A stretch of DNA of 55,460 nucleotides from Deltaproteobacteria bacterium (GTDB lineage: Bacteria; Desulfobacterota; Desulfuromonadia; Geobacterales; Pseudopelobacteraceae). The notes below the pieces were generated by a model, which did not search any database, was not told where the DNA came from, and was given only the letters and a program-made list of their open reading frames with translations. The translations under genes and the position numbers were made by a program. The stretch lies in contig JAJYCS010000004.1 of NCBI GenBank assembly GCA_021778115.1, forward strand, positions 1-55,460, written 5' to 3'. Positions 723 to 25,542 of this stretch are shown here, piece after piece. Each line of letters opens with the position of its first letter. Within the stretch, counting starts at the first letter, position 1.

Positions 723-1462
723 CAGATCCAGTCGGCGACAACGGTGAACTGAGGGCCGAAGGGCTCTGCAAGAGTTACGGCAAGCGTCAGGTGGTGCAGG
801 GGATCGACCTCTCCCTGCGCGCCGGTCAGGTGATCGGCCTCCTGGGGCCCAACGGCGCCGGCAAGACCACCACCTTTTACATGGTGGTGGGGTTGACCCT
901 GCCCGACAGCGGCCGGGTCTTCATCAACGGGGAGGATATCTCCGGCCTGCCGATGCATCTGCGTGCCCGCCGGGGGATCAGCTATCTCCCCCAGGAGGCC
1001 TCCGTCTTCCGCAAGCTGTCGGTGGCGGACAACCTGATGGCGATTTTGGAGACCGTGGAGACTGACCCGGAGCTGCGCCGGCACCGGCGGGACGAACTTC
1101 TGGAGGAGTTCGGCATCACCCATGTGGCCGCCACCATGGGATACGCCCTCTCCGGTGGTGAACGGCGTCGCGTGGAGATCGCCCGCGCCCTGATCACGAA
1201 CCCTTCCTTCGTCCTGCTGGACGAGCCGTTCGCCGGCATCGACCCGATTGCGGTGGCCGATATCCAGCGGCTGATCGTGGCGCTTAAGGCGCGAACCATC
1301 GGGGTGCTCATCTCCGATCACAACGTACGGGAGACCCTGGGGGTCTGCGATGCCGCCTACATCGTCAGCGAGGGGCGGGTGCTGGAATACGGCGCCCCGG
1401 AACAGATAGCGAACAGTCAGCGGGCCCGGGAGATCTACCTGGGTGAGGGGTTCCGGCTGTAG
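719..1462 (+). CDS. lptB: LptB, LPS export ABC transporter ATPase
   Basis: 247 residues. Walker A GPNGAGKTT lies at residues 43-51, the ABC signature LSGGERRRVEIARAL near 144, and Walker B LLDEPFAGIDP follows, with a switch histidine in ISDHNVRETL. The order and the close match to the short LptB family identify it as the cytoplasmic ATPase that drives extraction of LPS from the inner membrane by LptFG. Its start overlaps the lptA stop (ATGA). rpoN begins 25 nt after its stop, the conserved lptB-rpoN arrangement of many proteobacteria. No lptF or lptG is visible in the window. Confidence 0.95.
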   Translation: MTDPVGDNGELRAEGLCKSYGKRQVVQGIDLSLRAGQVIGLLGPNGAGKTTTFYMVVGLTLPDSGRVFINGEDISGLPMHLRARRGISYLPQEASVFRKLSVADNLMAILETVETDPELRRHRRDELLEEFGITHVAATMGYALSGGERRRVEIARALITNPSFVLLDEPFAGIDPIAVADIQRLIVALKARTIGVLISDHNVRETLGVCDAAYIVSEGRVLEYGAPEQIANSQRAREIYLGEGFRL

Positions 1463-1487
1463 GGGCCGGACAGGGGAGAACCGGATC

Positions 1488-2936
1488 ATGGCGCTGGAGA
1501 TGCGGCAACAGCTGAAGATGACCCAGCAACTGGTGATGACCCCCCAGCTGCAGCAGGCCATCAAACTGTTGCAGCTGACCCGTGTGGAGCTGCAGGATGT
1601 GGTGCGTCAGGAGCTGGAGGAAAATCCCCTCCTGGAAGAGGTGCTGGACCCGGACGAATCACGGGAGGGGGATCGGCAGCTGGAGGCCGATGAGGCCGAA
1701 CCGCAGGAGGGACGGGAGCCGGTGCGGGAGTCCTTCGATGAGGTGGCCGCCGGCGATGAGACCCTCCGTGACTGGGACAGCTATCGGGACGGTTACAATT
1801 ACAGCGTCGGCGAGCAGTATAACGATGATGACGACCGTCCCTCCTTTGAGGCGCTGCTGACCCGCAGGGGGACCCTGGCCGATCACCTGAGCTGGCAGCT
1901 GCAGCTGGGACACTTCAGTGAGGAGGAACGGCGGGTCGGTGAAGAGATCATCGGCAATCTGGATGACGATGGCTATTACCGGGGGCTGCTTCCGGATCTG
2001 GCCGCCGGTTGCGCCGTCCCCCTGGAGCTGGCTGAAGCGGTGCTGGGGCGTATCCAGGAGTTCGATCCCCCCGGTGTGGCCGCCCGCAGTCTGCAGGAGT
2101 GCCTGCTGGTGCAGGCGCGGGCCCTCGGGATGGAGGGGGGCCTGGTGGAGGCGATCCTGCTGCAGCACCTCAAAGAGCTGGAGAGCCGCAACTACCGCCT
2201 GATAGCGAGGGCGCTTCGCTGCGACCTGGATCAGGTGGTGACGGCGGCCCGGCTGATCGGCGGTCTCGACCCCCGTCCCGGTCTCCTCTACAGCAGCGAG
2301 GATACCCACTACATCTCCCCGGACATCTTCGTACACAAGGTGGGGGATGACTACGTGGTGATGCTGAACGACGAAGGACTGCCGAACCTGCGCCTGGCCC
2401 CCCATTACCTCGCAGCACGGGCAGGTGGCGGGCTTGATGCCAGGGCCGACGAGTATGTGGGTGACAAGATGCGATCGGCCCAATGGCTGATCAAGAGCAT
2501 TCAGCAACGACAGCGCACCATCTTCCGGGTGGCCAAGAGTATCGTCAAGTTCCAGCGTGAGTTTCTGGAGCGAGGGGTGGAGGGGCTGCGCCCCCTGGTG
2601 TTGCGGGATGTGGCCGAGGATATCGGGATGCATGAGTCCACCATCAGCCGGGTCACCACCAACAAGTACATGCAGACCCCCCAGGGGCTTTACGAACTCA
2701 AGTATTTCTTCAACAGCAGTCTCTCGACCTCCGATGGCGATGCCGTCTCCTCGGAAAGCGTCAAGAACCGGATCAGGGAGATCATCGACCGGGAGGACAG
2801 CCGCAAGCCCCTTTCGGACAAGGTGATTGCCGAGATGCTCTCGGACGAGACGGTGAACATCGCCCGCCGTACCGTCACCAAGTACCGTGAAATGCTCAAG
2901 ATCGGATCGTCGTCGGAACGCCGGCGTCATTTCTGA
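1488..2936 (+). CDS. rpoN: RNA polymerase sigma-54 factor
   Basis: 482 residues. Region I is the Gln/Leu-rich start (MRQQLKMTQQLVMTPQLQQA), followed by an acidic region II (about 55-120), the core-binding region III, a helix-turn-helix, and the C-terminal RpoN box ARRTVTKYRE that reads the -24 element. Sigma-54 directs transcription that needs ATP-dependent activators; one such activator is encoded at 8369-9739. ATG 1488 has a good site (GGGGAGA, 1473-1479) and begins exactly at the family N-terminus; the in-frame GTG inside lptB is rejected. The neighbourhood (lpt genes before, hpf and PTS genes after) is the classic rpoN cluster. Confidence 0.97.
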   Translation: MALEMRQQLKMTQQLVMTPQLQQAIKLLQLTRVELQDVVRQELEENPLLEEVLDPDESREGDRQLEADEAEPQEGREPVRESFDEVAAGDETLRDWDSYRDGYNYSVGEQYNDDDDRPSFEALLTRRGTLADHLSWQLQLGHFSEEERRVGEEIIGNLDDDGYYRGLLPDLAAGCAVPLELAEAVLGRIQEFDPPGVAARSLQECLLVQARALGMEGGLVEAILLQHLKELESRNYRLIARALRCDLDQVVTAARLIGGLDPRPGLLYSSEDTHYISPDIFVHKVGDDYVVMLNDEGLPNLRLAPHYLAARAGGGLDARADEYVGDKMRSAQWLIKSIQQRQRTIFRVAKSIVKFQREFLERGVEGLRPLVLRDVAEDIGMHESTISRVTTNKYMQTPQGLYELKYFFNSSLSTSDGDAVSSESVKNRIREIIDREDSRKPLSDKVIAEMLSDETVNIARRTVTKYREMLKIGSSSERRRHF

Positions 2937-5811: not shown

Positions 5812-6078
5812 ATGCTGCAACAGGAATGCGGGATCGTCAACAAACTGGGGCTCCACGCCCGGGCCTCGGCCCTGTTCGTCAAGACCGCCAGCCGGTTCCA
5901 ATCGGAGGTCAGGCTGGCCCGTGAGGGTGTGGAGGTGAACGGCAAGAGCATCATGGGTATCATGATGCTGGCCGCCGCCAAGGGGACCGTCGTCAGGCTG
6001 ACCGTGGAAGGGGTCGATGAGGCCGAGGCGTTTCAGGCGATCGTCGAGCTGATACGGGACGGATTCGGCGAGGAATGA
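5812..6078 (+). CDS. ptsH: Phosphocarrier protein HPr
   Basis: 88 residues. KLGLHARAS puts the active-site histidine at residue 15, and GKSIMGIMML puts the HprK-target serine at residue 46, both at the textbook positions. HPr relays phosphate from enzyme I to IIA proteins and is regulated by Ser46 phosphorylation. The expected next gene, ptsI/ptsP for enzyme I, is absent: prepilin peptidase starts right at the HPr stop. Enzyme I must be encoded elsewhere if the relay works. Confidence 0.94.
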   Translation: MLQQECGIVNKLGLHARASALFVKTASRFQSEVRLAREGVEVNGKSIMGIMMLAAAKGTVVRLTVEGVDEAEAFQAIVELIRDGFGEE

Positions 6079-6080
6079 CC

Positions 6081-6857
6081 ATGCCTGCGGCCCTGTTCAT
6101 GCCCCTTGCAAGCTTCCTGTTGGGGGCGGTGGTGGGATCCTTTCTCAATGTCTGCATCTACCGGCTCCCCCTGGAACAGTCGGTGGTTGCGCCCGGTTCA
6201 CGCTGCATGCGGTGCGGCACGGCGATACGCTGGTACGACAACATCCCGCTGTTCAGCTGGCTGCTGCTGCGGGGGCGCTGCCGCAGCTGCGGGGCGTCGT
6301 TCTCCATCCGCTACCCCGTGGTGGAGCTGATAACGGCTCTCCTTTCGCTGCTGCTGTTCCGCACCTTCGGCCTGTCACTCACCTTCGCCGTCATGTTCCT
6401 CTTCTGCGCCGCCCTGGTGGTGATCACCTTCATCGACTTCGACCACCAGATCATCCCCGATGAGATCTCCCTGCCGGGGATCATCGTCGGCTTCCTCAGC
6501 TCCTTCTTTCTGCCGGGGCCCGGCTGGATCTCCTCCCTCCTGGGGATTGTGGCCGGCTGGGGGAGCCTTGCCCTGGTCTTCTACGGCTATCTCTGGCTCA
6601 CCGGCCGTGAGGGGATGGGGGGCGGGGATGCCAAGCTGCTGGCCATGATGGGCGCCTTCCTGGGCTGGCCGGCGGTGCCGTTTATCATCTTCACCTCCTC
6701 CCTGGCGGGTACCGTTGCCGGACTCTCCATCATGGCCCTGCAGCGCAAGGATCGGCACCTGGCCATCCCGTTCGGCCCCTATCTGGCCTTCGGCGCGATC
6801 CTCTACATCGTTGCCGGTCCCCAGCTGATCCGGTGGTACCTCCAGATCGGACACTGA
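6081..6857 (+). CDS. pilD: Prepilin peptidase / N-methyltransferase PilD
   Basis: 258 residues, polytopic membrane protein. The N-terminal methylase part has two Cys pairs (CMRCG and CRSCG) that bind zinc; the A24 protease aspartates are in FIDFDHQIIPDE and GMGGGDAKLL. It cleaves after the leader glycine and N-methylates prepilins, here fimU, pilV, pilW and pilX among others. ATG 6081 is preferred over ATG 6075 because GAGGA ends directly before 6075 but sits about seven bases before 6081. It follows HPr with almost no gap. Confidence 0.94.
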   Translation: MPAALFMPLASFLLGAVVGSFLNVCIYRLPLEQSVVAPGSRCMRCGTAIRWYDNIPLFSWLLLRGRCRSCGASFSIRYPVVELITALLSLLLFRTFGLSLTFAVMFLFCAALVVITFIDFDHQIIPDEISLPGIIVGFLSSFFLPGPGWISSLLGIVAGWGSLALVFYGYLWLTGREGMGGGDAKLLAMMGAFLGWPAVPFIIFTSSLAGTVAGLSIMALQRKDRHLAIPFGPYLAFGAILYIVAGPQLIRWYLQIGH

Positions 6858-6860
6858 CCG

Positions 6861-8368
<1,508 letters not shown>

Positions 8369-8372
<4 letters not shown>

Positions 8373-9739
8373 GTACCCGGCCCCATATCCTGATCATCGA
8401 TGACGAAGAGAGCATGCGCCAGATGCTCTCGGTCATGCTCCGCAGGCAGGGGTATCAGCCCGACAGCGCCGCAGGCGGCCGTGAAGCGCTGCAGCGGCTG
8501 GCCACAACCGCCTACGACTTCATCCTGTGCGACCTCAGGATGCCGGAGATGGCGGGGCGTGACTTTCTGCGCCAGGCCCTGGAACGGGGCGTGCAGGCCC
8601 CGATCATCATGATGACCGCCTACGGCAGTGTGGATACCGCCGTGGCCTGCATGCAGGAAGGGGCCTACGACTTCATCTCCAAGCCGTTCAAGCAGGATGA
8701 GATCATTATTGTGCTGAAAAAGGCCGAGGAACGGGAACGGCTCAAGGAAGAGAACCGTCAGCTGCGGCTTCAGACCCTTGCCGGCGCCTCATTCCATGGC
8801 CTGACTGGCCGTAATTCGGCCATGCTCGCCCTCTACGACCAGATCAGCCGAGTGACGGATCTCAAGACTACGGTGCTGATCCTGGGGGAGTCGGGCACCG
8901 GCAAGGAGTTGGTGGCCCGGGCGGTCCATGCCGGCGGCGTCCGGGAGGGTAAACCGTTTGTGGCGGTCAACTGTGGCGCCATTCCGGAACCGCTCCTGGA
9001 GAGCGAGCTGTTCGGCCATCTCAAAGGGTCGTTCACCGGCGCCCTGGTTGACCGGGCCGGGCTGTTCGAGCAGGCCGACGGCGGGACCCTCTTCCTGGAT
9101 GAGGTGGGGGAGATGCCCCCCTCGTTGCAGGTGAAGCTGCTTCGGGTGCTGCAGGAGGGGGAGATCCGCCGGGTGGGGGCCAATACGTCGCGGCGGGTTG
9201 ATGTGCGGGTGCTTTCAGCAACGGCCCGGGACCTGCAGGCCGAGGTGGCGGCCGGCCGGTTCCGTGAAGATCTCTACTTCCGTCTGAACGTCTTCACCCT
9301 GCAGCTGCCGCCGTTGCGGGAGCGTCTTGACGATCTGCCGCTCCTGGCGGAACAGTTCGTCCGAGACTGCAGTCGTCGCATCGGTCGTCATCCGGCGCCG
9401 CGTCTTACCGCCGGGGCACTGCGCCGGCTCTTGGGGTACGACTGGCCCGGCAATGTGCGGGAACTGGAAAACCGCCTTGAACGGGCCCTGGTGCTGTGCG
9501 ACGGGCCACAGCTGTCGGAGCGCTGTCTGGACCTCCCGGATGCCGGCGGGGGGGCGGTTGCCACCACGGCGGGGGAGGGGACTAACCTCTCCATCAAACA
9601 GGCTGAACGGCTCCTGGAGCGGGAGCTGATCAGAAGGGCCCTGGAACGGACGGGTGGCAACCGGACTCATGCGGCCAAGCTCCTGGAGATCAGTCACCGC
9701 GCCCTCCTGTACAAGCTGAAGGAGTACGGCCTGGAATAG
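8369..9739 (+). CDS. Sigma-54-dependent response regulator (NtrC family)
   Basis: 456 residues. Receiver domain 1-120 with phospho-acceptor Asp55 (CDLRMPEM); AAA+ domain with Walker A GESGTGKE, Walker B LFLDEVGEM and an R-finger region; Fis-type helix-turn-helix at the C-terminus (GNRTHAAKLLEISHRALLYKL). The sigma-54 contact loop reads GSFTGA at 220-225 instead of the usual GAFTGA, a tolerated but less common form. It likely activates sigma-54 promoters on a signal from the upstream kinase. No clear GG-N10-GC promoter was found next to the pilus genes, so its targets are unknown. Confidence 0.92.
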
Positions 9740-9785
9740 CCGACTATTCAGTGCATACCGCTCCCCTGTTTCTCGCGGGACAACT

Positions 9786-9874
9786 AGGTAAAATTTGCGT
9801 ACCTGTGGGGTGAGGTGACGTAACAGCCTAATACGGCATGTTAATTTTATGTCCGCGGAGGCGGTATTTTTTTT
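9786..9874 (+). promoter_or_regulatory. Structured leader before the DsbC-like gene
   Basis: This lies in the 178-nt gap 9740-9917. AGGTA (9786-9790) can pair with TACCT (9800-9804). TAACAGCC (9821-9828) pairs with GGC-a-TGTTA (9835-9843), followed by ATTTTAT. CCGC-GGAG-GCGG (9853-9864) is followed by TA and eight T. The last two could be tandem terminators of the regulator gene or the switching part of an RNA leader. It does not match the GEMM-I c-di-GMP/cGAMP riboswitch pattern as far as can be judged by eye. Confidence 0.4.
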
Positions 9875-9917
9875 GCATAGGCGTTGGCCTAGTTATTTTA
9901 GAAAGGAGTAGTTCGCT

Positions 9918-10709
9918 ATGCGTACGATGTTGTTTGCAGGTTTTATGTTGCTGTTGTCCTCCGGTATCGGCTATGCCATGCCCAGCGTCCAGGGGTGCGG
10001 CAGCCAGGAGTGCGCCAAATGCCACTCCCTTTCCGTCAAGGAGGCGGGGGAACTCCTCGGTTTTGCCGGGGTGACGGTGAAATCGGTGAAGCCGGCGCCG
10101 GCCCGGGGGCTGTTCGAGGTGCTGGTTGAGAAGGGGAATCAGCTGGGGCTGCTCTTTATCGACTACGCCAAAAAACATGTCATCCAGGGGATGATCATCG
10201 ACCTGAAGACCCGGCAACCGGTGTCGGCCCATGCCAACGATCTGCCGAAACCGAAGCCGTTTGCCGGGGTCGCCCCCCAACTGATCCCGACCCGCTACGC
10301 CCTGACCATGGGGAACCCCAAGGGGAGCAAGCGGCTCTACGTCTTCACCGACCCCGATTGCCCCTTCTGCCGGCAGCTGCACCCGGTCCTGCTGCAGCTG
10401 GTGAAAGAGATGCCCGACCTGACCATCGAGTTCATGCTCTATCCCCTGCGGCAGCTGCACCCCCAGTCCTACGACAAGGCCCGCGTCATCTATACCGCCC
10501 ACAGTCTGGAACTGCTCAACAAGGCCTTTGCCGGCCAGCCCCTTCCCGCCCCCAAAGGGGATGAAGGGGAGGCGGCAATCAACGCCATCATCGCCTTTGC
10601 CCAGAAGGAGGGGATCAACGGCACCCCCACCATCCTCCTGGCAAACGGCAAGCCCTACCTGGGACCGCGGGATCCGGAGAGCATCAAGAAGGCGGTTGAG
10701 GGGAACTGA
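9918..10709 (+). CDS. DsbC-like thiol isomerase with N-terminal CxxCH motif (copy 1)
   Basis: 263 residues. Signal peptide about 1-20 (cleavage near GYA). The mature N-terminus has C27 and then CAKCH at residues 32-36, a canonical c-type heme attachment motif. A DsbC-like N-terminal region follows (SVKPAPARGLFEVLVEKG), then a thioredoxin fold with CPFC at 148-151 and a cis-proline loop NGTPTI. DsbC proteins shuffle disulfides in the periplasm. The heme motif is not part of E. coli DsbC. Ribosome site AAAGGAG is strong. A paralogue follows after 50 nt, then PilY1; PilY1 is Cys-rich, so a client relation is inferred. The CxxCH could instead be a second redox or metal site. Confidence 0.85.
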   Translation: MRTMLFAGFMLLLSSGIGYAMPSVQGCGSQECAKCHSLSVKEAGELLGFAGVTVKSVKPAPARGLFEVLVEKGNQLGLLFIDYAKKHVIQGMIIDLKTRQPVSAHANDLPKPKPFAGVAPQLIPTRYALTMGNPKGSKRLYVFTDPDCPFCRQLHPVLLQLVKEMPDLTIEFMLYPLRQLHPQSYDKARVIYTAHSLELLNKAFAGQPLPAPKGDEGEAAINAIIAFAQKEGINGTPTILLANGKPYLGPRDPESIKKAVEGN

Positions 10710-10759
10710 TCGCCTGTGCCGAGTCGCAATCCTGTACAGCGGGAAGGAGCGTTTTCACC

Positions 10760-11551
10760 ATGGTAAGGATGTTGTTGGCACTATCTCTTGTCGTGCTATT
10801 TGCCACCGCCGGGTATGGGGTGCCGGCCTTGCCGGGATGCGGCGGTGGGCAGCCGTGTGCCGCCTGCCACACCATGACCCCCCAGGAAGCGACCCGTTTG
10901 CTAAAAAAATCCGGGGGGACCGTGCTGTCAGTGAAACAGGCACCGGCCCCCGGTCTCTTTGAGTTATTGGTTGAAAAGGGGGGAGAGCGTGGTCTTATCT
11001 ATATGGACTATGGTAAGAAATACCTGTTCCAGGGGGTTATCCTCAGCATGTCTGACTGGAAACCGGTTGCCGCCCATGGATCGGAGGCGGTGCAGCCCCA
11101 TGCGGTGACCCATATCGATCCGGCAGCCATACCGATAAAGAACGCCCTGGTGTTGGGCAATCCGATGGCAAAAAAACGGCTCTACGTCTTTACCGACCCG
11201 GAATGTCCCTATTGCCGGAGATTCCACCGTGAGTTGCAAAAGCTGGAAAAGAGTGAACCGGACCTGGCGGTGATCATCCTGATGTTTCCGCTGCCGATCC
11301 ATCCCCATGCCTACGACAAGGCGCGGATGATTATCGCGAACCACAGTCTGGCCCTGCTGGATACCGCCTTTGCCGGCAGAGATATTCCGTTACCCAAAGG
11401 GGACGAAGGACGTCAGGCGGTGGACGAGATGATCGCCTTTGCCCAGCATCACGGGATTACCGGTACCCCGACGGTGGTGCTGCCGGATGGCACCGTTATG
11501 GTGGGGGGGCGCGATGCCGCCTCGATGCAGCAGATACTGTCGCGCTTTTAG
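10760..11551 (+). CDS. DsbC-like thiol isomerase with N-terminal CxxCH motif (copy 2)
   Basis: 263 residues, same layout as the preceding gene: signal peptide 1-20, C27, CAACH at 33-37, DsbC-like segment (SVKQAPAPGLFELLVEKG), thioredoxin active site CPYC at 149-152, and TGTPTV near the C-terminus. It is clearly a tandem paralogue but has diverged throughout, so the duplication is not recent, and codon choice is more relaxed here than in copy 1. Retention of both the heme motif and the CxxC in both copies suggests both matter. Ribosome site AAGGAG lies about 12 nt before ATG. pilY1 begins 45 nt downstream. Confidence 0.85.
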   Translation: MVRMLLALSLVVLFATAGYGVPALPGCGGGQPCAACHTMTPQEATRLLKKSGGTVLSVKQAPAPGLFELLVEKGGERGLIYMDYGKKYLFQGVILSMSDWKPVAAHGSEAVQPHAVTHIDPAAIPIKNALVLGNPMAKKRLYVFTDPECPYCRRFHRELQKLEKSEPDLAVIILMFPLPIHPHAYDKARMIIANHSLALLDTAFAGRDIPLPKGDEGRQAVDEMIAFAQHHGITGTPTVVLPDGTVMVGGRDAASMQQILSRF

Positions 11552-11596: not shown

Positions 11597-14500
11597 ATGA
11601 GCTACATGAAAAAATTGACCATCCGTCTCGTCGGGGCATCGCTTGCGGTTTGCCTCCTGCTGCTCGGGTCGCAAGCCTGGGCGACGGCAACGCAGAGCAC
11701 CTATACCCCCACCATGAGCGATTACTGCGTGCAGCCGCCGTTCCTCACCGGGTATATACCGCCTCAGGTGCTGTTTGTGATGGGCAAGGACCACAAGTTC
11801 TACTATCCGGCCTATAACGACGCCTCAGATATTGACAACGATGGCCAGTTGGAGACCGGCTACAAGCACTCCTTCGATTACTACGGCTATTTCGATTCCT
11901 ACAAATGCTATAATTATAACAGTAATTCCGGCTGGTTTGAGCCCTACGGCGACACCACCGATAAGTACTGCACCGGCAGCAACGCCGGGATGTGGAGCGG
12001 CAACTTCCTCAACTGGGTGGCCATGTCCCGGGCCGATGTGATTAAGCTGGTGATCTACGGCGGGTACCGTACCTCGGATAACCAGGGGAACGCCTACGAC
12101 GTAATCAGCGGTGAGTATATCCCGCAGGACGGCCATATCTGGGGCAAGGAGTATCTGGGCAGCGATGCCTACAAGCTGTTTCCCCAGGGTGGTACAAACC
12201 GGGCACTCTTCTGCGTTGACGGTGTCTCGGCCAACGGTAACCAGATATCCCAGCTCAAGGTGATCCCCGATGTCACCGATATCTCGGGGGTGACGGTCAG
12301 TGGCGGCTTACGGGCCTGGAACTGGGTCAATGTGGACGGCAACACCAATATCTGCGCAGACAACAAGATGGATCTGAACGGCGACGGCGCGGCCGAGTCC
12401 GCAACCCTCACCGGTCTGGCCAAGTACAATGTCTCGGTCAAGGTCTGCGATCCCTCCTCGGGCTTTATCACCGACGCCACCTGGGAGGCCAAACACTGCA
12501 AACAGTACGGCAGCAACTACCGTTCGGTAGGTCTGATGCAGCTCTATGGCGAGACCGGGCAGAGTAATCTGGTCTGTAGCCGCGATATGGCGACGCCGTG
12601 CAGCAGCTATAGCGATCCCACCTGTCCCAATAACGGCAAAGGCGAGTGTGTGGACGCCTCAGGTATGTACTTCGGCCTTATCGCCGGTTCCTACACAAAT
12701 CCGAAGGCCGGCGGGTTTGTCCGGAAGGACCTCTACGGCCTGAATAGCGAGACCAACCAGCAAAACGGGCAGTTCCAGACCTCCGCCACCGGCGGCAAGG
12801 GGCTTTTGATCAAGTCCATCGAGGGGTTCAAGGCTCAGGCGGTCTATCCGTTGAGTTCCCAGTGGGGTAATCCGATTGCCGAGATCATGTTTGAAGGGCT
12901 GCGTTACTGGGGGGGGAAAGGAACCCCCACCTCTGCCTTTGTGAGCAGTATCTCCAGCGGTAATAACGGCGATAACGGCAACTACTCCTCCATGCCCAGC
13001 TGGGATACGCCGGCCACCCTCTTCCCCCCCTGTTCGCTCCGGTTCAACCTGGTTTTCTCCGATGTCTACAACAGCTTCGACGACGACCAGCTGCCCGGCT
13101 CCGCCTTCAGCAGTTTCAGCAGTGACATGAGCAACATGAACGTGCAGACCCTGGCCAACCAGATCTCCGCCAACGAATCCCTGGCGAACAAGAGTCTGGT
13201 GGTGGGGGAATACGGTACCACATCCGGGCCCAATACCGATGGCCGCTGCGATGCCAAGGCCCTTTCCGGCTCCGACGGCCTGGGTAATGTGCGAGGATTG
13301 TGTCCGGCGGAGGGGGACCTGAAGGGGAGCTACTACCCGGCAGCGGTGGCCCTCTATGGCCATAACTCCATGGTGGCCAACACCGGCACCTCCAATGTGT
13401 TGACCTATGTGGTGGCCTTCACCTCCAACGTGCCGGAGATGCGGGTGACCACCAGCAGCGGCAAGCAGGCCCTGATCATGCCCTACGGCAAGTCGGTCTC
13501 CGGCAGCTACGGCTGGAACTGCAGCACCTCCAACACCAGCTTCACGGTGGCAAACGTGACCACCGCCGCCGGTTCCACCGTCCCCAGCCTGACCGTGAGC
13601 CCTCTGAGCTCGACCTCTAGTTGCCCCACCATGGCCACGGTGGGGTACTACGTGACCGACACCGAGTACGACAGCGCCAACAATCTGAAGTACGTGAAGT
13701 TCAACACCTCCTATGACGACCTGGGGGGGGGGGATTACGACCTGGATGTGTTGGCCGAGTATACGGTCTGCGCCGCAGGCTCCTCACACTGCCCGAGTCT
13801 TACCGGTGATCAGGTCTCGGTGACGGTCAGGAGGATCTACTCGGCAGCCGGCAATCCCGATGCCTTCGGCTTTACCGCGGTCGGCGTGGGGAGCGATTCC
13901 GGCACCTACCTGCTCGTCCAGCATACCGCAACGCCGCCCTCAGGTTCTTCCTGGGCGGCCAATCCGTTGACCACCAACAGCCAGACCATCATCTTCAACG
14001 CCGCCTCCAGCACGGCGGTGCTGCCCAAACCGCCGCTCTGGTACGCAGCCAAATACGGCGGTTTTAACGATATGGATGGTAACGGCCTGCCGTACACCGA
14101 TTACACCTGCGATCCGGCCACCAGGGGCAGTGCGGTCCGCAACCCTAAGTGCGACGAGTGGAACAAGAAGGGTGACGGCAACCCCGATACCTACTTCCTG
14201 GTCTCCAACCCGAGCCAGATGGAGCAGCGGTTGCGTGATGCCTTGGATGCCATCCTGGCCAGGGTCTCGTCCGGCACAGCCGCCTCGATCCTGAACAACA
14301 GCGAGGGGAGCGGCGCCAGCCTGCTGCAGGCGGTCTTCTACCCCAAAAAGGATTTCGACAACAACACCCAGGCCTACTGGATCGGCGAGATCCACAACAT
14401 GTGGTACTACCTGGATCCGTTCCTGCAGAATACCTCCATCCGTGAGGACACGGTGCAGGACAACAAGCTGAACCTCAAGCAGGACCGGATCGCCCAGTTC

Positions 14501-16864
14501 TATTTCGATACCGGTCTGAACAAGACCCAGGTGCGGCTCTTTACCGATGCCAACGGCGATGGCATACCTGATTCTGCGACCCCGGACCAGACCGTCGACC
14601 CGGATAACGTTCGTTCCCTCTGGAAGGCGGGCCGCAAGCTGTGGGCCCGGACCCTTGCCACTGATCCGCGCACCATCTATACCCATACCGATATAACCAG
14701 CACCGGTTTTGACGACCCCACCACCAAACTGACCACCTTCGGCACGTCCAATATCTCCACCCTGACCGCTAACGGCAATTTCCTCTCGCTGTTGACCCCC
14801 CAGGGGGTAACGGCGGATGCAACCAAGGCAGGCAAGCTGATAAACTATATCCAGGGTACGGATCAGCCGCCAGACAGTGACGGCACCACGTACCGTCCCC
14901 GCAAGGTGGAGATCGATGCCTGCAATCCCTCCAGCACCAACTATGTGGCCGGTTCGAACTGCGTGACCAGCGACAGTAACTATTACCGTGAATGGAAGCT
15001 GGGGGATATTGTCTCCTCCACCCCCAAGCTGGTGGCCAGTGTGCCGTTGAACAGCTATCAGAAACCGGCTCCCAACGGGTATGGCGATACCAGCTACCAG
15101 GCGTTCATCTCGACCCCGGCCTATACCTCCCGCGGCATGGTCTTTGTCGGAGGCAATGACGGCATGCTGCACGCCTTCAAGCTGGGAGTTCTGAAAGAGT
15201 TGAGCGGCGCCTACGACAAGGCGGAGTTTGACAACGCCTCCGGTACGCTGGCCACCTCCGCTGACGATCTGGGGCGGGAGATGTGGAGTTTTATCCCGAA
15301 ACAGGCGCTCCCCTATCTCGACTATCTCTCAAACCCCAACTACTGCCACCTGTATTACGTCGACAAAACCTCGATGATCGTTGACGCCAGTGTGGGCAAG
15401 CCGAGCAACTGCGACGCGAGCGCCAACTACTGGGATTGCGCCAAGGATACCAGTAACGGTACCAACTGGCGTACTGTCCTCGTGGGGGGGATGGGGTACG
15501 GCGGCGCGGCCAAATGGAACGGCGACACCACGGAAACCGCACCGAGCGGCAGCGTCAAGACCGCGGTCAAGGGGACCAGCGCCACCTCTGCGGTGGGGTA
15601 TTCCTCCTACTTCGCATTGGATGTCACCGATCCGAACAATCCGAAATACCTGTGGGAGTTCCCCGGGACCACCTCGGCAGCCGGGAATTTGGGCTTTACC
15701 ACGCCTGGCCCTGCCATTGTCCGGATAGCCGCCACGACGAACGGGGCGCCGGATAACAGCAAGAACGGCCGCTGGTTCGCCGTGTTCGCCTCGGGTCCCA
15801 CCGGGCCGATCAATACCGTGACGCGCCAGTTTCAGGGCCAATCCGACCAGCAGCTCCATATCTATGTGGTCGATCTGGCGGACGGTACCCTGGTACGGAC
15901 CATCGACACCTTCTACGACGGCACCAGCCTGCCATCCCAAGCCTTTGCCGGTTCCCTCAGCACCAGCTGGATCGATACCGATCGCGGTAATCAGAGCGCT
16001 CCCGGCTGGTACAGCGACGATGCCGTCTACATCGGCTATACCCAATACGATAGCGTCTCCAATACCTGGTCGAAGGGCGGGGTGATACGTCTGATCACCA
16101 ACGAGAGTACCGATCCCAGCACCTGGAAGGCCTCTTCATTGATCAGCGGCATCGGGCCGGTGACCACCTCGGTGACCAAGCTGCAGGATCGCAAGAATTA
16201 TAACCTCTGGATCTACTTCGGCACCGGCAGGTTCTTCTACAAAGGGGACAACCCCAATCAGCAACAGGCGTTGTACGGGGTAAAGGAACCCTGTTACTCA
16301 ACCTTCAACCGTGGCAGTCGGTTCAGCACCCTCCTCAACGTGGCGGGCGGCACCAATAACGCCCTGGATAAGAATTGCACCGACCCGGTGCCCAGTGCCC
16401 TTGTGGACCAAACCGGATCTGCCACGCTGGCGCCGGCAAGCACGCTGCAAGCGACTGATCCCGGCTGGTTCATCAATCTCGCGGCCAGTGATTCGAACTC
16501 ATCGGCAGAGCGTGATATTACCGACCCCCTCGCGTCGCCGTCCGGGGCGGTCTTCTTTACCACCTTCAAGCCGAGTAGCGATATCTGCAAGTTTGGTGGC
16601 GATTCGTTGATCTGGGCGGTGCGGTATGATACCGGAGGCCTGCCGCCGGCCCGCTCCATGCAGGGGAAGGCCTTGATGCAGGTCTCGACCGGCGCCTTTG
16701 CCGAGGTCAGCCTCTCTTCTGCCTTCAGTAACCCCACCAACAAGGGGTATGACGGGCGTCGGCTCAGTTCCCCCATCTCCGGGGTCCCCCCCACGGCCCA
16801 GGGGCTGTCGCTCATCACTAATCCACCGCCGGTGAAGAAGTTTTTGCAGATACGGGAACTGTAG
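11597..16864 (+). CDS. pilY1: PilY1, pilus tip-associated adhesin / assembly protein
   Basis: 1755 residues, larger than Pseudomonas PilY1 (about 1160). Signal peptide about 1-30 (SQAWATA). The N-terminal half would hold the von Willebrand A region, but the strand that normally ends in a DxSxS metal site reads VLFVMGKDHKFYY from residue 58, so a standard MIDAS is absent. Several Asp-rich calcium-type loops are seen (DIDNDGQLE, DLNGDG, DMDGNG, DANGDGIPD). The C-terminal ~700 residues are the PilY1 beta-propeller (GDIVSSTPKLV, FVGGNDGMLHAF, VLVGGMGYGG, YFGTGRFF). About 28 cysteines are in the mature protein. PilY1 works with minor pilins at the pilus tip; fimU, pilV, pilW and pilX follow. A second start ATG lies at 11606. 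Confidence 0.93.
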   Translation: MSYMKKLTIRLVGASLAVCLLLLGSQAWATATQSTYTPTMSDYCVQPPFLTGYIPPQVLFVMGKDHKFYYPAYNDASDIDNDGQLETGYKHSFDYYGYFDSYKCYNYNSNSGWFEPYGDTTDKYCTGSNAGMWSGNFLNWVAMSRADVIKLVIYGGYRTSDNQGNAYDVISGEYIPQDGHIWGKEYLGSDAYKLFPQGGTNRALFCVDGVSANGNQISQLKVIPDVTDISGVTVSGGLRAWNWVNVDGNTNICADNKMDLNGDGAAESATLTGLAKYNVSVKVCDPSSGFITDATWEAKHCKQYGSNYRSVGLMQLYGETGQSNLVCSRDMATPCSSYSDPTCPNNGKGECVDASGMYFGLIAGSYTNPKAGGFVRKDLYGLNSETNQQNGQFQTSATGGKGLLIKSIEGFKAQAVYPLSSQWGNPIAEIMFEGLRYWGGKGTPTSAFVSSISSGNNGDNGNYSSMPSWDTPATLFPPCSLRFNLVFSDVYNSFDDDQLPGSAFSSFSSDMSNMNVQTLANQISANESLANKSLVVGEYGTTSGPNTDGRCDAKALSGSDGLGNVRGLCPAEGDLKGSYYPAAVALYGHNSMVANTGTSNVLTYVVAFTSNVPEMRVTTSSGKQALIMPYGKSVSGSYGWNCSTSNTSFTVANVTTAAGSTVPSLTVSPLSSTSSCPTMATVGYYVTDTEYDSANNLKYVKFNTSYDDLGGGDYDLDVLAEYTVCAAGSSHCPSLTGDQVSVTVRRIYSAAGNPDAFGFTAVGVGSDSGTYLLVQHTATPPSGSSWAANPLTTNSQTIIFNAASSTAVLPKPPLWYAAKYGGFNDMDGNGLPYTDYTCDPATRGSAVRNPKCDEWNKKGDGNPDTYFLVSNPSQMEQRLRDALDAILARVSSGTAASILNNSEGSGASLLQAVFYPKKDFDNNTQAYWIGEIHNMWYYLDPFLQNTSIREDTVQDNKLNLKQDRIAQFYFDTGLNKTQVRLFTDANGDGIPDSATPDQTVDPDNVRSLWKAGRKLWARTLATDPRTIYTHTDITSTGFDDPTTKLTTFGTSNISTLTANGNFLSLLTPQGVTADATKAGKLINYIQGTDQPPDSDGTTYRPRKVEIDACNPSSTNYVAGSNCVTSDSNYYREWKLGDIVSSTPKLVASVPLNSYQKPAPNGYGDTSYQAFISTPAYTSRGMVFVGGNDGMLHAFKLGVLKELSGAYDKAEFDNASGTLATSADDLGREMWSFIPKQALPYLDYLSNPNYCHLYYVDKTSMIVDASVGKPSNCDASANYWDCAKDTSNGTNWRTVLVGGMGYGGAAKWNGDTTETAPSGSVKTAVKGTSATSAVGYSSYFALDVTDPNNPKYLWEFPGTTSAAGNLGFTTPGPAIVRIAATTNGAPDNSKNGRWFAVFASGPTGPINTVTRQFQGQSDQQLHIYVVDLADGTLVRTIDTFYDGTSLPSQAFAGSLSTSWIDTDRGNQSAPGWYSDDAVYIGYTQYDSVSNTWSKGGVIRLITNESTDPSTWKASSLISGIGPVTTSVTKLQDRKNYNLWIYFGTGRFFYKGDNPNQQQALYGVKEPCYSTFNRGSRFSTLLNVAGGTNNALDKNCTDPVPSALVDQTGSATLAPASTLQATDPGWFINLAASDSNSSAERDITDPLASPSGAVFFTTFKPSSDICKFGGDSLIWAVRYDTGGLPPARSMQGKALMQVSTGAFAEVSLSSAFSNPTNKGYDGRRLSSPISGVPPTAQGLSLITNPPPVKKFLQIREL

Positions 16865-16898: not shown

Positions 16899-17411
16899 AT
16901 GAGGCAACGACGGAGCAGCACGGGGTTCTCGCTGATTGAGCTCATGGTGGTGATCGCCATTATCGCCATCCTCCTTTCCCTTGCCACCCTCAACTTCAAC
17001 CAGTGGCAGCGTAAATCGCAGATTGAACGCCAGACGCGGGAGCTTATGGCAGATCTGAATACCGCCCGGACGGAATCGATCTACCGGAAGCAGAGTCACG
17101 CCCTGATCATGAACACCGATGGGCTGGGGTATATCCTCCGCCGGTACAGCTCCCCGGACGAGAAGAGGACCTCAACGGTGCAACCCGCTGAGATCATCCT
17201 CAACAAGGGGGTGCATTACCAGTTCACCAAGGGGAGCGGCTCCTCCATCGGTGACCGGATCTTCCAGTTCGATATCACCGGGTTTACCAACGACTGGGAT
17301 ACGATCAGGGTTAATCCGGTCGGGAGCGGCGCTGCCTTTGACTGTGTCGTGGTCTCTGCATCGCGGATCAATATCGGACAGATGTCGGGAGGGACCTGTG
17401 TTCAAAACTAG
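16899..17411 (+). CDS. Minor pilin, FimU/FimT (GspH) family
   Basis: 170 residues. Prepilin leader ends at G9 and is followed by FSLIELMVVIAIIAILLSLA, the class III signal with Glu at +5. The GspH-type region follows (RELMADLNTARTESIYRKQSHALIM). PilD should cut after G9. Such minor pilins prime pilus assembly and support PilY1 at the tip. Strong ribosome site AAAGGAGGGGAGG. Two C-terminal cysteines (FDCVVV and GGTCVQN) could form a disulfide. The stop overlaps the start of pilV by 14 nt. Confidence 0.9.
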   Translation: MRQRRSSTGFSLIELMVVIAIIAILLSLATLNFNQWQRKSQIERQTRELMADLNTARTESIYRKQSHALIMNTDGLGYILRRYSSPDEKRTSTVQPAEIILNKGVHYQFTKGSGSSIGDRIFQFDITGFTNDWDTIRVNPVGSGAAFDCVVVSASRINIGQMSGGTCVQN

Positions 17412-17808: not shown

Positions 17809-19053
17809 ATGAAAAACAACCAGCGGGGCTTCACCCTCATCGAACTAGTCATTGTGATGGCCATCTTTATCGTGGTGATCATCATCACCGCAGATGCCTT
17901 CAAGGTGGTGTTATCGCAATCGGCAAAGATCTTCAGGAGTGAAGAGAGCAATACGGAGGGGATTGTGGGGCTTGAGATGATGCGCCACGACCTGCAGCAG
18001 GCCGGCTATGGTCTGTACACCGAACCCCTGAACAGCGGGTACGTCGGTGAGGCATCCGTATCGCCGGCCAGCAGTTTCAACGAACCGTCACTCACCGTCC
18101 CCCCCCGCGCCATTGTCACCGGGAATAATATACCGGTGGGTACCCAGGATACGGGCAGTGAATCGGGTAATAGCTATACCATTGCCATGAACTCCGATTA
18201 TCTGGCTATCAAGGCCACCAGCGCCAGCCGCGATGGCGTGGCCCAGAAATGGACCTATCTCACCTATCTTCCTGGCTCCGTGACACCCCATGTCTGGCCC
18301 TCGGCCAGCGAAAACCTCTCCACCAACGATGCGGTGGTGCTGCTGACGCGCAAGCTCACCACCTCCTCCAACACCTTGACCTTGGTCCCTGATCCGGCGG
18401 GAAGCGGCTCCAGCAGTTTCTATTTTGCCTACAGCAACAGCGCCTTTGCGAATTATTCAACGAACAGCAGTAATTATGTGGTGTACGGTCTGGATGGTGG
18501 CGCAACGATCAGGATGCCCTTTAACCGTACCGACTATTTCGTGGCCCGCCCATCAGCCGCAGGCAAGATGCCGACGGTCTGCGCACCCAATACGGGGGAA
18601 TTGTACAAGGCGGTGGTCAATCAGGATGACGGCAGGCTGACCTACTATCCGGTGCTTGACTGTGTGGCCGATATGCAGGTGGTGCTTGGCTGGGATCTGC
18701 GTAACGGCAGCTCACCTGGCACCGATGGGCTCATCGATACCTGGTCGAACGCCGATGGCACGGTGGTTACCCAGAACAACGTCGCCGGCTTTGCCTCCAC
18801 GGCAGAGGTGCAGGCGGCCCTGGCCAGTCCTTCCCTGATCAGAGACAGCCTGAAGATGGTCAAGGTGTATGTGTTGGCGCAGAACGGGCGTAAGGATACC
18901 GGCTATACCAGCCCTTCACCGATCGTCGTGGGTGATCCCGGCGAGGCGAGTCTCACCAGAAGCTACGATATCACCGCAGCGGGCTGGAGCAATTACCGTT
19001 GGAAGCTGTACCGGTTGGTGGTGAGTCCGAAGAACCTGCAGGCTAATCAGTGA
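17809..19053 (+). CDS. pilW: Minor pilin PilW
   Basis: 414 residues. Leader MKNNQRG is followed by FTLIELVIVMAIFIVVIIITA with Glu+5, then the PilW pattern EEGNTEGIVGLEMMRHDLQQAGYGL (here with ESNTEG). The long C-terminal domain (to about 400) is Ser/Thr/Asn-rich, as usual for tip minor pilins, with a conserved end RSYDITAAGWSNYRWKLYRL. PilW joins PilX and PilV in the complex that primes pili and displays PilY1. It follows pilV by 24 nt, and its stop overlaps the region of the pilX start. Confidence 0.9.
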   Translation: MKNNQRGFTLIELVIVMAIFIVVIIITADAFKVVLSQSAKIFRSEESNTEGIVGLEMMRHDLQQAGYGLYTEPLNSGYVGEASVSPASSFNEPSLTVPPRAIVTGNNIPVGTQDTGSESGNSYTIAMNSDYLAIKATSASRDGVAQKWTYLTYLPGSVTPHVWPSASENLSTNDAVVLLTRKLTTSSNTLTLVPDPAGSGSSSFYFAYSNSAFANYSTNSSNYVVYGLDGGATIRMPFNRTDYFVARPSAAGKMPTVCAPNTGELYKAVVNQDDGRLTYYPVLDCVADMQVVLGWDLRNGSSPGTDGLIDTWSNADGTVVTQNNVAGFASTAEVQAALASPSLIRDSLKMVKVYVLAQNGRKDTGYTSPSPIVVGDPGEASLTRSYDITAAGWSNYRWKLYRLVVSPKNLQANQ

Positions 19054-20048: not shown

Positions 20049-21110
20049 ATGTTCGGATTGTTCGGGAAGAAAAAAGATCTGGTCGGCATCGACATCGGTT
20101 CAAGCTCGGTCAAGTTGGTGCAGCTCGCCCGCATCAAGGACGGCTACCAGCTGCAGAACATAGGTATCGTGCCCCTGCCGCCCGAGGCCATTGTGGACAA
20201 CAGCCTGATGGATAGCGGCTCGGTGGTGGATGCGATTAAAAATCTCATCGCCAGTCTGGGGATCAAGGCCAAGGAGGTCGCCTGCTCCATCTCGGGCAAC
20301 GCGGTCATTATCCGCAAGATCAGCCTGTCAGCCATGACCAGCGAAGAGCTTGAGGACCAGATCGGCTGGGAGGCTGAACAGTATATCCCGTTCGACATCA
20401 AGGATGTGCATCTCGATTTTCAGATCCTGGGGGCCGATCCGGTTGACCCAGCCAGGATGCAGGTGCTTCTGGTGGCCAGCAAGAAGGATATCATCAACGA
20501 TTATGTCGCCATGTTTGCCGATGCCGGTCTTACCCTCTCCGTCATGGATGTGGACGGCTTCGCCCTCCAGAACGCCTGGGAGCTGGGCGCCGCGGTCTCC
20601 GGTGAGGATGTGCTGGCCTTGGTCAACATCGGCGCCAGCATCATGAACATGAACGTGGTGCGGGGTGAGACCTCCCTCTTTACCCGTGACGTGCAGATGG
20701 GGGGGAACCTCTACACCGAGGAGATCCAGAAGCAGCTGGGTGTGGGGAGCCAGGAGGCCGAATCCCTGAAGATGCTGGCCCATGAGGTGGCAACGCAGCC
20801 CCTGCATGAGGTGATCGGCCGGGTCAACGACACCATCTCCCAGGAGATCCGCCGTTCCATTGATTTCTATAACTCGACGGCCGCTAATGAGGACCGGATC
20901 GGGGCCATCTGTCTGAGCGGCGGCGGCTCCAAGGTGCAGGGTCTGCGCGAGGCGTTGCAGGAGCGGTTGGGGATGGAGGTGCGGTTCCTCAATCCCTTTG
21001 CCGCCATCACGTACAACGAGAAGGATTTCGATCCTGAGTATCTGCAGGAGATCGCCCCCTTGATGGCGGTTGGGGTGGGGCTGGCCATACGGAGGGTCGG
21101 GGATAAATGA
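20049..21110 (+). CDS. pilM: PilM, actin-like pilus assembly ATPase
   Basis: 353 residues. FtsA/actin-like fold: phosphate-1 motif GIDIGSSSVKLVQL near residues 13-26, the conserved EELEDQIGWEAEQYIPFDI segment, and adenosine motif ICLSGGGSKVQGL near 285. PilM is cytoplasmic and binds the N-terminal INLLP peptide of PilN, linking the motor to the envelope complex. Start has AGGTAGG upstream. The stop overlaps pilN by ATGA. Confidence 0.96.
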   Translation: MFGLFGKKKDLVGIDIGSSSVKLVQLARIKDGYQLQNIGIVPLPPEAIVDNSLMDSGSVVDAIKNLIASLGIKAKEVACSISGNAVIIRKISLSAMTSEELEDQIGWEAEQYIPFDIKDVHLDFQILGADPVDPARMQVLLVASKKDIINDYVAMFADAGLTLSVMDVDGFALQNAWELGAAVSGEDVLALVNIGASIMNMNVVRGETSLFTRDVQMGGNLYTEEIQKQLGVGSQEAESLKMLAHEVATQPLHEVIGRVNDTISQEIRRSIDFYNSTAANEDRIGAICLSGGGSKVQGLREALQERLGMEVRFLNPFAAITYNEKDFDPEYLQEIAPLMAVGVGLAIRRVGDK

Positions 21111-22851: not shown

Positions 22852-22863
22852 GGAGTGTCCCCG

Positions 22864-25542
22864 ATGAAATGGCATCTGAAGCAACTCACCCTTGGCCTGG
22901 CCGCGCTCTGCGCCGTTGCAACGGTCTCAGCAGGCACTGCGGCTGCAGCGGCGCCATCGGCGCCAACGTCGGGCAAGGCGCACAACGCCACTATCCGATC
23001 GATTGCGGTGGAGGGCGAAGGGGAGCACACGGCGCTGCTGATCACCCTGTCGGCTCCGGTCACCTATACCAGCTACAAGACCACCGGGCCTGCGCGGTTG
23101 GTGCTCGATCTCGCCCAGGCCCAGCCTGCGGAGGGGATGGCGGCCACAGTGGCGGGGAGAGGACCCTTCACACGGGTCACCATCAAGCGTTACGACACCG
23201 ATGCCGGCACCCTTACCAGGATGGAGATCGAGCTGGCCCAGGACCTCGACCCCGTGATCAGCCCGCTGCCGGACAAGGAAGGGGTGCTGAAGGTCACCTT
23301 TCCCGGTTACCAGCCGCCGCCGGTGACGCCCCCTGCCGCCGCAGCAACTCCGGCGGTAGCCGCTGCATCGGCCCCTGCGGCCGCGCCTGCAGCCACCGCC
23401 TCAAGTCAGCCGGTCATCACCGGCGTTGTCCCGCGGGGAGGGGGGATCGCCATCCAGATGACCGGCGGTACCCCGGCCTTCAGGCAGTTCAGGCTCAACA
23501 AGCCGGACCGCCTGGTGATCGATATCCCCGCTGCCATGGCGGCGCCTGACCTGAAGATCGTCAGCCTCAACACCGCCGGTGTCGCCACGGCCCGCATCGG
23601 CACCTCCTTCGGCAAGGTGCGGGTGGTGCTCGATCTCCTCACCGACAACCTGAACGACGCCGTGGTGGAGCCCACCGCCGATGGTCTGCTGGTCCGTTTC
23701 CCCGCCACCCTGGCCATTCCCGGCCGGAAACAGCCGCAGCCTGCCGCCGCCGCTGCAGCGGCCAAGGCGGCCCCGGCGGCCGTTGTCCAAACGCAACCGG
23801 TGGCCTCTCCTCCGCCGGTAAAACTTACCCCCGTTGTGCCCGCTGAACCGGTTGCAAAGGTTATGCATCACAGCGCCCCGCCCCAGGTGAAGGCCATTGA
23901 TTTTCAGGTCCTCGATGGCCTGACCCGTATCACCATAACGGCCAGCGGATCGCCGGTGGTGGATGAACCGGTCAAGTCCGCCGGCTTTGTCTCCCTGCGG
24001 ATCAAAAACGCCCTGCTGCCCAACGCCCTGCGCCGCTCCTTTGAGACCCGCAACTTCAACACCCCGGTGCTCCGCATCACCCCGATCCAGGTCCATACCC
24101 GGAAGGAGACGGATACCATCATAAGGGTGGCCATGCGTGCCGATGCGCCGTTCCAGCTTCGGCGCGAGGCGGATGTCATCTATCTGGAGTTCAGACATCC
24201 GGCCAGACCGGCCTCTTTTGTCCACCCGGCGGCCCATCAGGAAGCACCTGCTGCTGCGGCCTCTCCGGCGTCGTCTGCGATGGAAAAACAGCTCACCGAC
24301 GAGCCCACCGTGGCCGGCAAGCGGATCTACACCGGCCGCAAGGTCACCCTTGAGTTCGCCGACGCCGATGTGCGCAAGATATTCCAGCTCCTCTCCGAGG
24401 TCAGCAACAAGAACTTCGTCCTGGGTGATGAGGTGGGGGGCACCATCAGCCTGAAGCTGGTCAACGTGCCGTGGGATCAGGCGTTGGACATCATCCTGGA
24501 CACCAAGAATCTGGACAAGCGCGAGGAGGGGAACATCATCCTCATCCGGGGCAAGGGTAAGTTCAAATCCCTGCTGGATGAGGAGGTCGACATGCGCAAG
24601 GCAGCCCTCAAGAGCGAACCGCTCGAGACCGCCATGTTCGACGTGAACTACGCTGATCTGAACACCATCGTGGATCAGTTCAAGGCCCTAAAGACCGACC
24701 GTGGCACCATCACCGCCGATGCCCGCACCAACAAGGTGATCGTCAAGGATGTCAAAGACGCCGTGAACGACATGCGCACCCTCCTGAAAAGCCTGGATGT
24801 CCCGGAACGTCAGGTGATGATCGAGGCCCGCATCGTCGAGGCCACCAGCACCTTCACCCGCTCCCTGGGGGTCAACTGGGGCATTCACTACCGTGACGGC
24901 TCCGCCTCCATCGCCGGTATCAACTCCATGGACACCAGCTTCGGCGGTCTCACCTCCACCGTCCCCCCAAGCACCGGCGTCAGCGGTCAGCCGGGCGCCT
25001 CGGCCGGTATCTCCTTCGGCACCCTGGCCAGCAACATCAAGCTGGACATGCGCCTGAACGCCGCCGTCAGCGCCGGTCTGGTCCGTATCGTCTCCACGCC
25101 GCGGGTGGCCACCCTGAACCACAAGGCCGCCAAGATCACCCAGGGGCAGCAGATACCCTACACCTCATCCACCTCCGACAAGGTGCAGACCCAGTTCGTC
25201 GAGGCGGCCCTCTCCCTTGAGGTGACCCCCAACATCAACCCCAACGGCACCATCGTGATGAAGATCGATGCCAAAAACGACGCCCCCGGATCCAGCGTGG
25301 CCGGCGGCACCATACCGGCCATCAACAAGAAAGAGGCCACCACCGAGATGATGCTGCGGGACGGCGAGACCACCGTCATCGGCGGGATCTACGTGGAGCG
25401 GGACACCAACAGCGACGACGGCGTGCCGTTTCTGCAGGATATTCCGTTTCTGGGTGGCCTCTTCAAGTCCAACTCGGTGGAAAAGACCCGCACCGAGCTG
25501 CTGATCTTTATCACGCCGAGGATACTGAACAACAACGTTTAA
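22864..25542 (+). CDS. pilQ: PilQ, type IV pilus secretin
   Basis: 892 residues. Signal peptide about 1-28 (TAAAA). Three AMIN-like peptidoglycan-binding modules are visible at roughly 38-135, 180-285 and 335-450, joined by Ala/Pro linkers. The secretin N0/N1 region starts near 490 (VTLEFADADVRKIFQLLSEV), and the channel-forming secretin domain ends with the signature (VPFLQDIPFLGGLFKS, TELLIFITPRIL). It forms the outer-membrane pore for the pilus. ATG 22864 follows AAGGAG by eight bases; GTG 22855 is too close to it. Two AMIN domains are usual; three is long. Confidence 0.96.
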   Translation: MKWHLKQLTLGLAALCAVATVSAGTAAAAAPSAPTSGKAHNATIRSIAVEGEGEHTALLITLSAPVTYTSYKTTGPARLVLDLAQAQPAEGMAATVAGRGPFTRVTIKRYDTDAGTLTRMEIELAQDLDPVISPLPDKEGVLKVTFPGYQPPPVTPPAAAATPAVAAASAPAAAPAATASSQPVITGVVPRGGGIAIQMTGGTPAFRQFRLNKPDRLVIDIPAAMAAPDLKIVSLNTAGVATARIGTSFGKVRVVLDLLTDNLNDAVVEPTADGLLVRFPATLAIPGRKQPQPAAAAAAAKAAPAAVVQTQPVASPPPVKLTPVVPAEPVAKVMHHSAPPQVKAIDFQVLDGLTRITITASGSPVVDEPVKSAGFVSLRIKNALLPNALRRSFETRNFNTPVLRITPIQVHTRKETDTIIRVAMRADAPFQLRREADVIYLEFRHPARPASFVHPAAHQEAPAAAASPASSAMEKQLTDEPTVAGKRIYTGRKVTLEFADADVRKIFQLLSEVSNKNFVLGDEVGGTISLKLVNVPWDQALDIILDTKNLDKREEGNIILIRGKGKFKSLLDEEVDMRKAALKSEPLETAMFDVNYADLNTIVDQFKALKTDRGTITADARTNKVIVKDVKDAVNDMRTLLKSLDVPERQVMIEARIVEATSTFTRSLGVNWGIHYRDGSASIAGINSMDTSFGGLTSTVPPSTGVSGQPGASAGISFGTLASNIKLDMRLNAAVSAGLVRIVSTPRVATLNHKAAKITQGQQIPYTSSTSDKVQTQFVEAALSLEVTPNINPNGTIVMKIDAKNDAPGSSVAGGTIPAINKKEATTEMMLRDGETTVIGGIYVERDTNSDDGVPFLQDIPFLGGLFKSNSVEKTRTELLIFITPRILNNNV

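Follow-up and report, generated by a model that had tools for sequence, protein, structure and literature searches.

In Myxococcus xanthus, the stability of PilY1.1 requires TfcP, a CxxCH cytochrome c (PMC8833165) whose gene directly precedes pilY1.1 (PMC13190605). TfcP stabilizes PilY1.1 at low calcium, is thought not to carry electrons, and has been proposed as a periplasmic maturation factor for PilY1, with homologues reported only in Myxococcales (PMC8833165). The locus described here, from a member of the Geobacterales, recalls this arrangement: in the stretch of 55,460 nucleotides that was analyzed (the window), exported proteins with a single CxxCH are encoded directly 5' of pilY1 within a cluster of minor pilin genes, the second DsbC-type gene ending at position 11551 and the PilY1 gene starting at 11597. 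However, the predicted fold of TfcP is cytochrome c-like, and a cysteine about 60 residues after its CxxCH serves as ligand, whereas the window proteins have a DsbC_N domain and no cysteine at that place. Since the distal cysteine is absent, our claim is that these proteins may work like TfcP, not that they are TfcP; the suggested parallel is functional, and no homology is claimed. In architecture they are closest to E. coli DsbC, which is likewise exported, joins an N-terminal dimerization domain to a thioredoxin domain with CxxC, and is their best match in both sequence and fold. In contrast to E. coli DsbC, they add a CxxCH extension before DsbC residue 1 and have no further cysteine pair in the thioredoxin domain.

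The preliminary description of this DNA, made from its letters, had reported two exported DsbC-like proteins in tandem, diverged paralogues that both keep each motif, and this is borne out by the open reading frames and motifs (Table 1). Sec-type signal peptides, read by eye, begin both proteins (MRTMLFAGFMLLLSSGIGYA- and MVRMLLALSLVVLFATAGYG-), Pfam places PF10411 (DsbC_N) and PF13098 (Thioredoxin_2) above cut-off in each, and the two copies are 48% identical over 259 amino acids. The only cysteines of copy A are residues 27, 32, 35, 148, and 151, and neither copy has a cysteine between 35/36 and 148/149. In the family alignment, the TP cis-proline loop (T236-P237) is kept in 128 to 129 of 130 members. 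Against the NCBIfam DsbC equivalog NF008129 the copies score 56.7 and 53.9 bits, well below its cut-off of 215, so they belong to the DsbC superfamily without being the E. coli DsbC equivalog. By sequence, both genes are predicted to encode exported, presumably dimeric disulfide isomerases of the DsbC family.

Table 1. Coordinates of the DsbC-type genes, their motifs, and the pilus-related genes of the window
Feature	Position	Strand	Basis or remark
rpoN	1443-2936		
Prepilin peptidase (PilD-like)	6075..6857	+	by eye; recurrent neighbor cluster, 33 loci
Sensor kinase	6861-8372	+	by eye; recurrent neighbor cluster
NtrC-type sigma-54 response regulator	8369-9739	+	by eye; recurrent neighbor cluster
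CxxCH-DsbC copy A (P0001, 263 aa)	9918..10709	+	ORF; signal peptide, CAKCH, DsbC_N, thioredoxin CPFC
CAKCH, copy A residues 32-36, probable c-heme attachment site	10011..10025	+	N-terminal extension
DsbC_N domain, copy A residues 49-102	10062..10223	+	Pfam PF10411, E 2.2e-10
CPFC thioredoxin active site, copy A residues 148-151	10359..10370	+	motif search
CxxCH-DsbC copy B (P0002, 263 aa)	10760..11551	+	ORF, Pfam, tree
CAACH, copy B residues 33-37	10856..10870	+	motif search
CPYC thioredoxin active site, copy B residues 149-152	11204..11215	+	motif search
PilY1-like pilus tip adhesin, 1755 aa, 29 Cys	11597..16864	+	PF05567 on C-terminal part
EF-hand-like Ca motif DANGDGIPD, PilY1 residues 984-992	14546..14572	+	regex
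Minor pilin, N-methylation motif, GspH/FimU-like	16899..17411	+	PF07963 E 1.7e-8; PF12019 below cut-off
Minor pilin, PilW-like	17809..19053	+	PF07963 E 1.7e-8; PF16074 E 2e-4, below cut-off
PilM	20049-21110		
Secretin (PilQ)	22855-25542		

The model of the mature copy A obtained with AlphaFold2 from an alignment of 70 rows (pLDDT 94.3) led to the same fold family. Its best PDB match by E-value was E. coli DsbC (1eej, E 1e-12), which is also the best solved relative by sequence (E 4.6e-12), and its closest full-length folds were DsbC chains. CxxCH occupies model residues 12 to 16 and the alignment with 1eej begins at residue 17, one residue past the motif, which places CxxCH in an N-terminal extension that the modeled protein has and E. 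coli DsbC does not. The domain that follows matches DsbC_N in Pfam; a cytochrome c fold was not among the fold matches, where its absence is no proof.

The large gene downstream was recognized as pilY1 from its C-terminal part alone, which matches the PilY1 beta-propeller PF05567 with 38.2 bits (E 1e-9, cut-off 28.1); a Pfam scan of the full-length product gave no match. Its 29 cysteines, one of them in the signal peptide, agree with the roughly 28 counted in the preliminary description, and its calcium motif has the form Dx[DN]xDGxxD described for PilY1 (PMC8833165). The sensor kinase and NtrC regulator directly upstream of the DsbC gene form neighbor clusters at 42 and 48 loci, and a consensus scan of positions 9740 to 9918 for a sigma-54 promoter ahead of copy A gave no site. 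Just 3' of the secretin PilQ gene, at 26245-28218, lies a gene for a 657-aa protein with invasin D3/bacterial Ig-like repeats.

To judge the constraint on CxxCH, we collected homologues from related genomes, GTDB contigs, and 297 genomes of the phylum, which gave 135 unique members, 134 of them with an N terminus usable for scoring the motif. Poor conservation among orthologues had been named at the outset as an observation that would speak against the motif; instead, CxxCH is kept in 130 of the 134, spanning Desulfobacterota and Nitrospirota. Given this conservation, and since the patterns of the GTDB contig scan did not contain CxxCH, the motif is not a matter of chance. The residues flanking the motif vary among members, but the histidine after the second cysteine is present in 130 of 130, and CxxC without the histidine does not occur among the 134. 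In a tree from which the columns of the motif had been excluded, CxxCH was lost only as a whole and in two events, one in genus g11 (three genomes: G037, G040, and G047) and the other in L115. The motif is therefore under strong constraint, as judged from these alignments. Of the 135 members, 134 have a thioredoxin active site of the form C/U-x-x-C, 125 with Cys-Cys and 9 with selenocysteine-Cys; the remaining one has Cys-Ser. No relatives were found in viral contigs. CxxCH-DsbC is a real and well-conserved form of which the literature searched contains no description.

An all-or-nothing C-x-x-C-H set between variable residues is as expected for c-heme attachment and agrees with it more closely than with an additional redox CxxC. 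From the conservation of the motif we infer, rather than prove, that the segment carries heme, most likely one covalent c-type heme in the dimerization half. As exported proteins with CxxCH, copies A and B share one attribute of c-type cytochromes. Heme c assembly genes are at hand: PF01578 occurs twice in the window's own genome (best E 1.5e-54). Such genes are found in 291 of the 297 genomes of the phylum, so that genome-wide heme machinery cannot discriminate heme binding. Beyond CxxCH, the alignment of 130 members contains no invariant His, Met, or Cys in the N-domain that could serve as second axial ligand, and a classical six-coordinate electron-transfer heme is therefore not indicated. 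A putative heme might be five-coordinate, use the variable Cys or His at position 27, or take a ligand from the other subunit.

We next consider how consistently the gene accompanies pilY1. A same-strand PilY1 lies at most 6 kb downstream of the DsbC gene in 36 of the 41 Geobacterales loci with enough sequence, and within 1.3 kb in 32; five have no downstream PilY1. The linkage spans several families of the order, with the recurring gene order prepilin peptidase, sensor kinase, NtrC, DsbC, PilY1, and minor pilins. The pilY1 linkage suspected from the window alone thus extends through the Geobacterales. As a general rule, dedication to PilY1 is not supported, since none of the 18 loci from other phyla has PilY1 downstream of CxxCH-DsbC. 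As CxxCH is common to phyla without this link, the simplest view is that the motif predates it, and the ancestral role of the protein is something else; no recurrent neighbor family outside Geobacterales was frequent enough to name it. The argument that PilY1 is a dedicated client because it is rich in cysteines was also dropped: PilY1 proteins adjoining the gene (n = 47) have a median of 33 cysteines (range, 8 to 85) and those away from it (n = 10) a median of 34 (P = 0.87), and clade medians of 17 to 41 are normal for myxobacterial PilY1 (PMC13190605). In nine Geobacterales loci (e.g., L050:3493-4017 and L214:11953-12489), a protein of 175 to 180 aa is encoded between DsbC and PilY1; it lacks a signal peptide, and its zinc-ribbon-like CxxCH motifs probably serve zinc rather than heme binding.

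Neither is the pair the rule. Most Geobacterales loci hold a single copy, and tandem copies occur in a minority of other genomes (e.g., L051, L063, L064, L065, and L081). In the tree, copy A clusters with Trichlorobacter thiogenes-type copies (distance, 0.64), and the nearest neighbor of copy B is the single DsbC of genome G011, directly upstream of PilY1 (L015; distance, 0.40). Because the two copies group with different relatives, the pair is not a recent duplication; on the tree, it represents two diverged gene lineages side by side and not a special two-enzyme relay.

Natural variants separate the two modules of the protein. In two species of the window's own genus (G002 and G013), the gene about 300 bp upstream of PilY1 encodes only a signal peptide, CxxCH, and DsbC_N, with 123 and 140 aa, respectively, and these thioredoxin-less forms are the closest match to the TfcP layout. 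The 300 bp after the short gene hold no remnant of a thioredoxin domain but another small ORF. The two short forms share 54 of 83 mature residues, with a dN of 0.24 and saturated dS, which indicates that they are under selection. With no domain remnant and such strong constraint, we rejected their reading as pseudogenes. When 141 genomes of the order were searched with this short form, the remaining short frames proved to be fragments at contig ends or matches that were weak and partial. A further variant is the second tandem copy of L064, in which CPYS replaces CPYC and CxxCH is kept. Conversely, the three g11 genomes have a CPFC DsbC beside PilY1 without CxxCH, and the motif is therefore dispensable there. 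With the CxxCH half alone in G002 and G013 and the isomerase alone in g11, the two activities are separable, and the retention of the CxxCH domain by itself at pilY1 suggests that it has its own job in pilus tip maturation. These natural dissections make the question directly testable in Trichlorobacter and Geobacter species. Between the thioredoxin-less gene and PilY1, L197 and L198 encode a small exported protein (about 100 aa), and a related protein occurs in four of the contig loci (e.g., L053:1169-1492).

Building on the observed motif conservation, fold family, synteny, and one-activity natural forms, we infer a physical action on PilY1 and a chaperone role. The reading we favor, to which we give about an even chance, is that a probable c-heme DsbC was recruited in Geobacterales into the pilY1/minor pilin cluster as a PilY1 maturation factor with separable modules. 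The thioredoxin CPFC/CPYC site would reshuffle or proofread disulfides, and the CxxCH-DsbC_N half would be a separate, probably heme-stabilized client-binding or folding module that may act on PilY1 before its entry into the pilus priming complex, as proposed for TfcP. A bolder reading, which we consider less likely than not, is that CxxCH-DsbC_N is a heme c folding module that matures PilY1 and can be separated from the thioredoxin domain, and that Geobacterales and Myxococcales independently placed a monoheme c-type protein directly upstream of pilY1. Should this be so, c-heme chaperones would be a recurrent part of pilus-tip assembly. If heme is bound, a protein-folding enzyme would have a c-type heme built into its dimerization half, which, together with TfcP, would suggest that heme proteins help to fold or stabilize pilus tips in two distinct lineages of bacteria.

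This reading has to be weighed against others. CxxCH might bind no heme and instead be a second redox dithiol passing electrons between CcdA/DsbD and CPYC, or, jointly with the cysteine upstream of it, a cysteine site with a metal-binding or structural role. This is an unlikely alternative that nevertheless keeps an appreciable chance: 99 of the 130 CxxCH members have a cysteine five residues before the motif (position 27), giving C-x4-C-x2-C-H, a conserved distal heme ligand is missing, and CcdA/DsbD_TM is present in all 18 genomes tested. Yet a redox CxxC needs no histidine, and here the histidine is invariant and never lost alone. Position 27 is a histidine in 11 members and is Cys or His in only 110 of 130, so that the upstream cysteine is missing or replaced by histidine in about a quarter of members, and CxxCH persists where the thioredoxin domain is gone. 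The protein could also be a general periplasmic isomerase with many clients, such as apocytochromes, that sits in the pilus cluster for the timing of its expression and has no special action on PilY1. The absence of PilY1 and of recurrent neighbors outside Geobacterales, the PilY1 cysteine content that does not track with the gene, and the five Geobacterales loci without downstream PilY1 would all fit. We nonetheless consider it improbable, as the same-strand synteny with PilY1 is tight over several families of Geobacterales, and the thioredoxin-less forms, under selection beside PilY1, cannot have a general isomerase role.

The preliminary description had gone further and considered the pair as possibly tied to periplasmic electron flow. 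In such a scheme, a periplasmic carrier would reduce CPYC through the bound heme and so link tip folding to respiration. Both motifs do lie in one polypeptide and are almost always kept together, but each activity occurs beside PilY1 without the other, and the lack of an invariant second axial ligand argues against such a route. Moreover, single electrons from a heme would need extra chemistry to be passed onto a two-electron dithiol. A missing CcdA/DsbD, considered as a reason for heme-driven reduction, was rejected: the window's own genome encodes a CcdA-type DsbD_TM protein, through which electrons can arrive the ordinary way. We therefore regard heme-driven isomerization as very improbable.

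That the thioredoxin site of the family is catalytic is marked by selenocysteine. In nine CxxCH-DsbC members (L089:10373, L090:10373, L092:3118, L095:6625, L097:10376, L107:10352, L127, L135, and L141), an in-frame TGA stands precisely where the first cysteine of the active site would be encoded (UPYC). All nine have a hairpin of the type CUUCAUC-AGGA-GAUGAAG that starts 18 nt from the TGA, its two sides carrying matching base changes in L135, and selB scored above cut-off in their genomes. These nine members are selenoprotein forms. UxxC in PF13098 is of a known kind, that of Sec-containing thiol:disulfide interchange proteins, as far as the excerpts of these reports go (PMC13188914, PMC1794560). 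These proteins share the UxxC active site with the nine members, whereas copies A and B of the window have Cys, and the same excerpts contain no mention of CxxCH. The tree requires at least five changes between Sec and Cys. L137, the Cys-containing sister of the Sec-bearing L135, still has a 7-bp SECIS-like hairpin (CUCCAUU-GGGA-GAUGGAG), likely a relic of a recent change from Sec to Cys.
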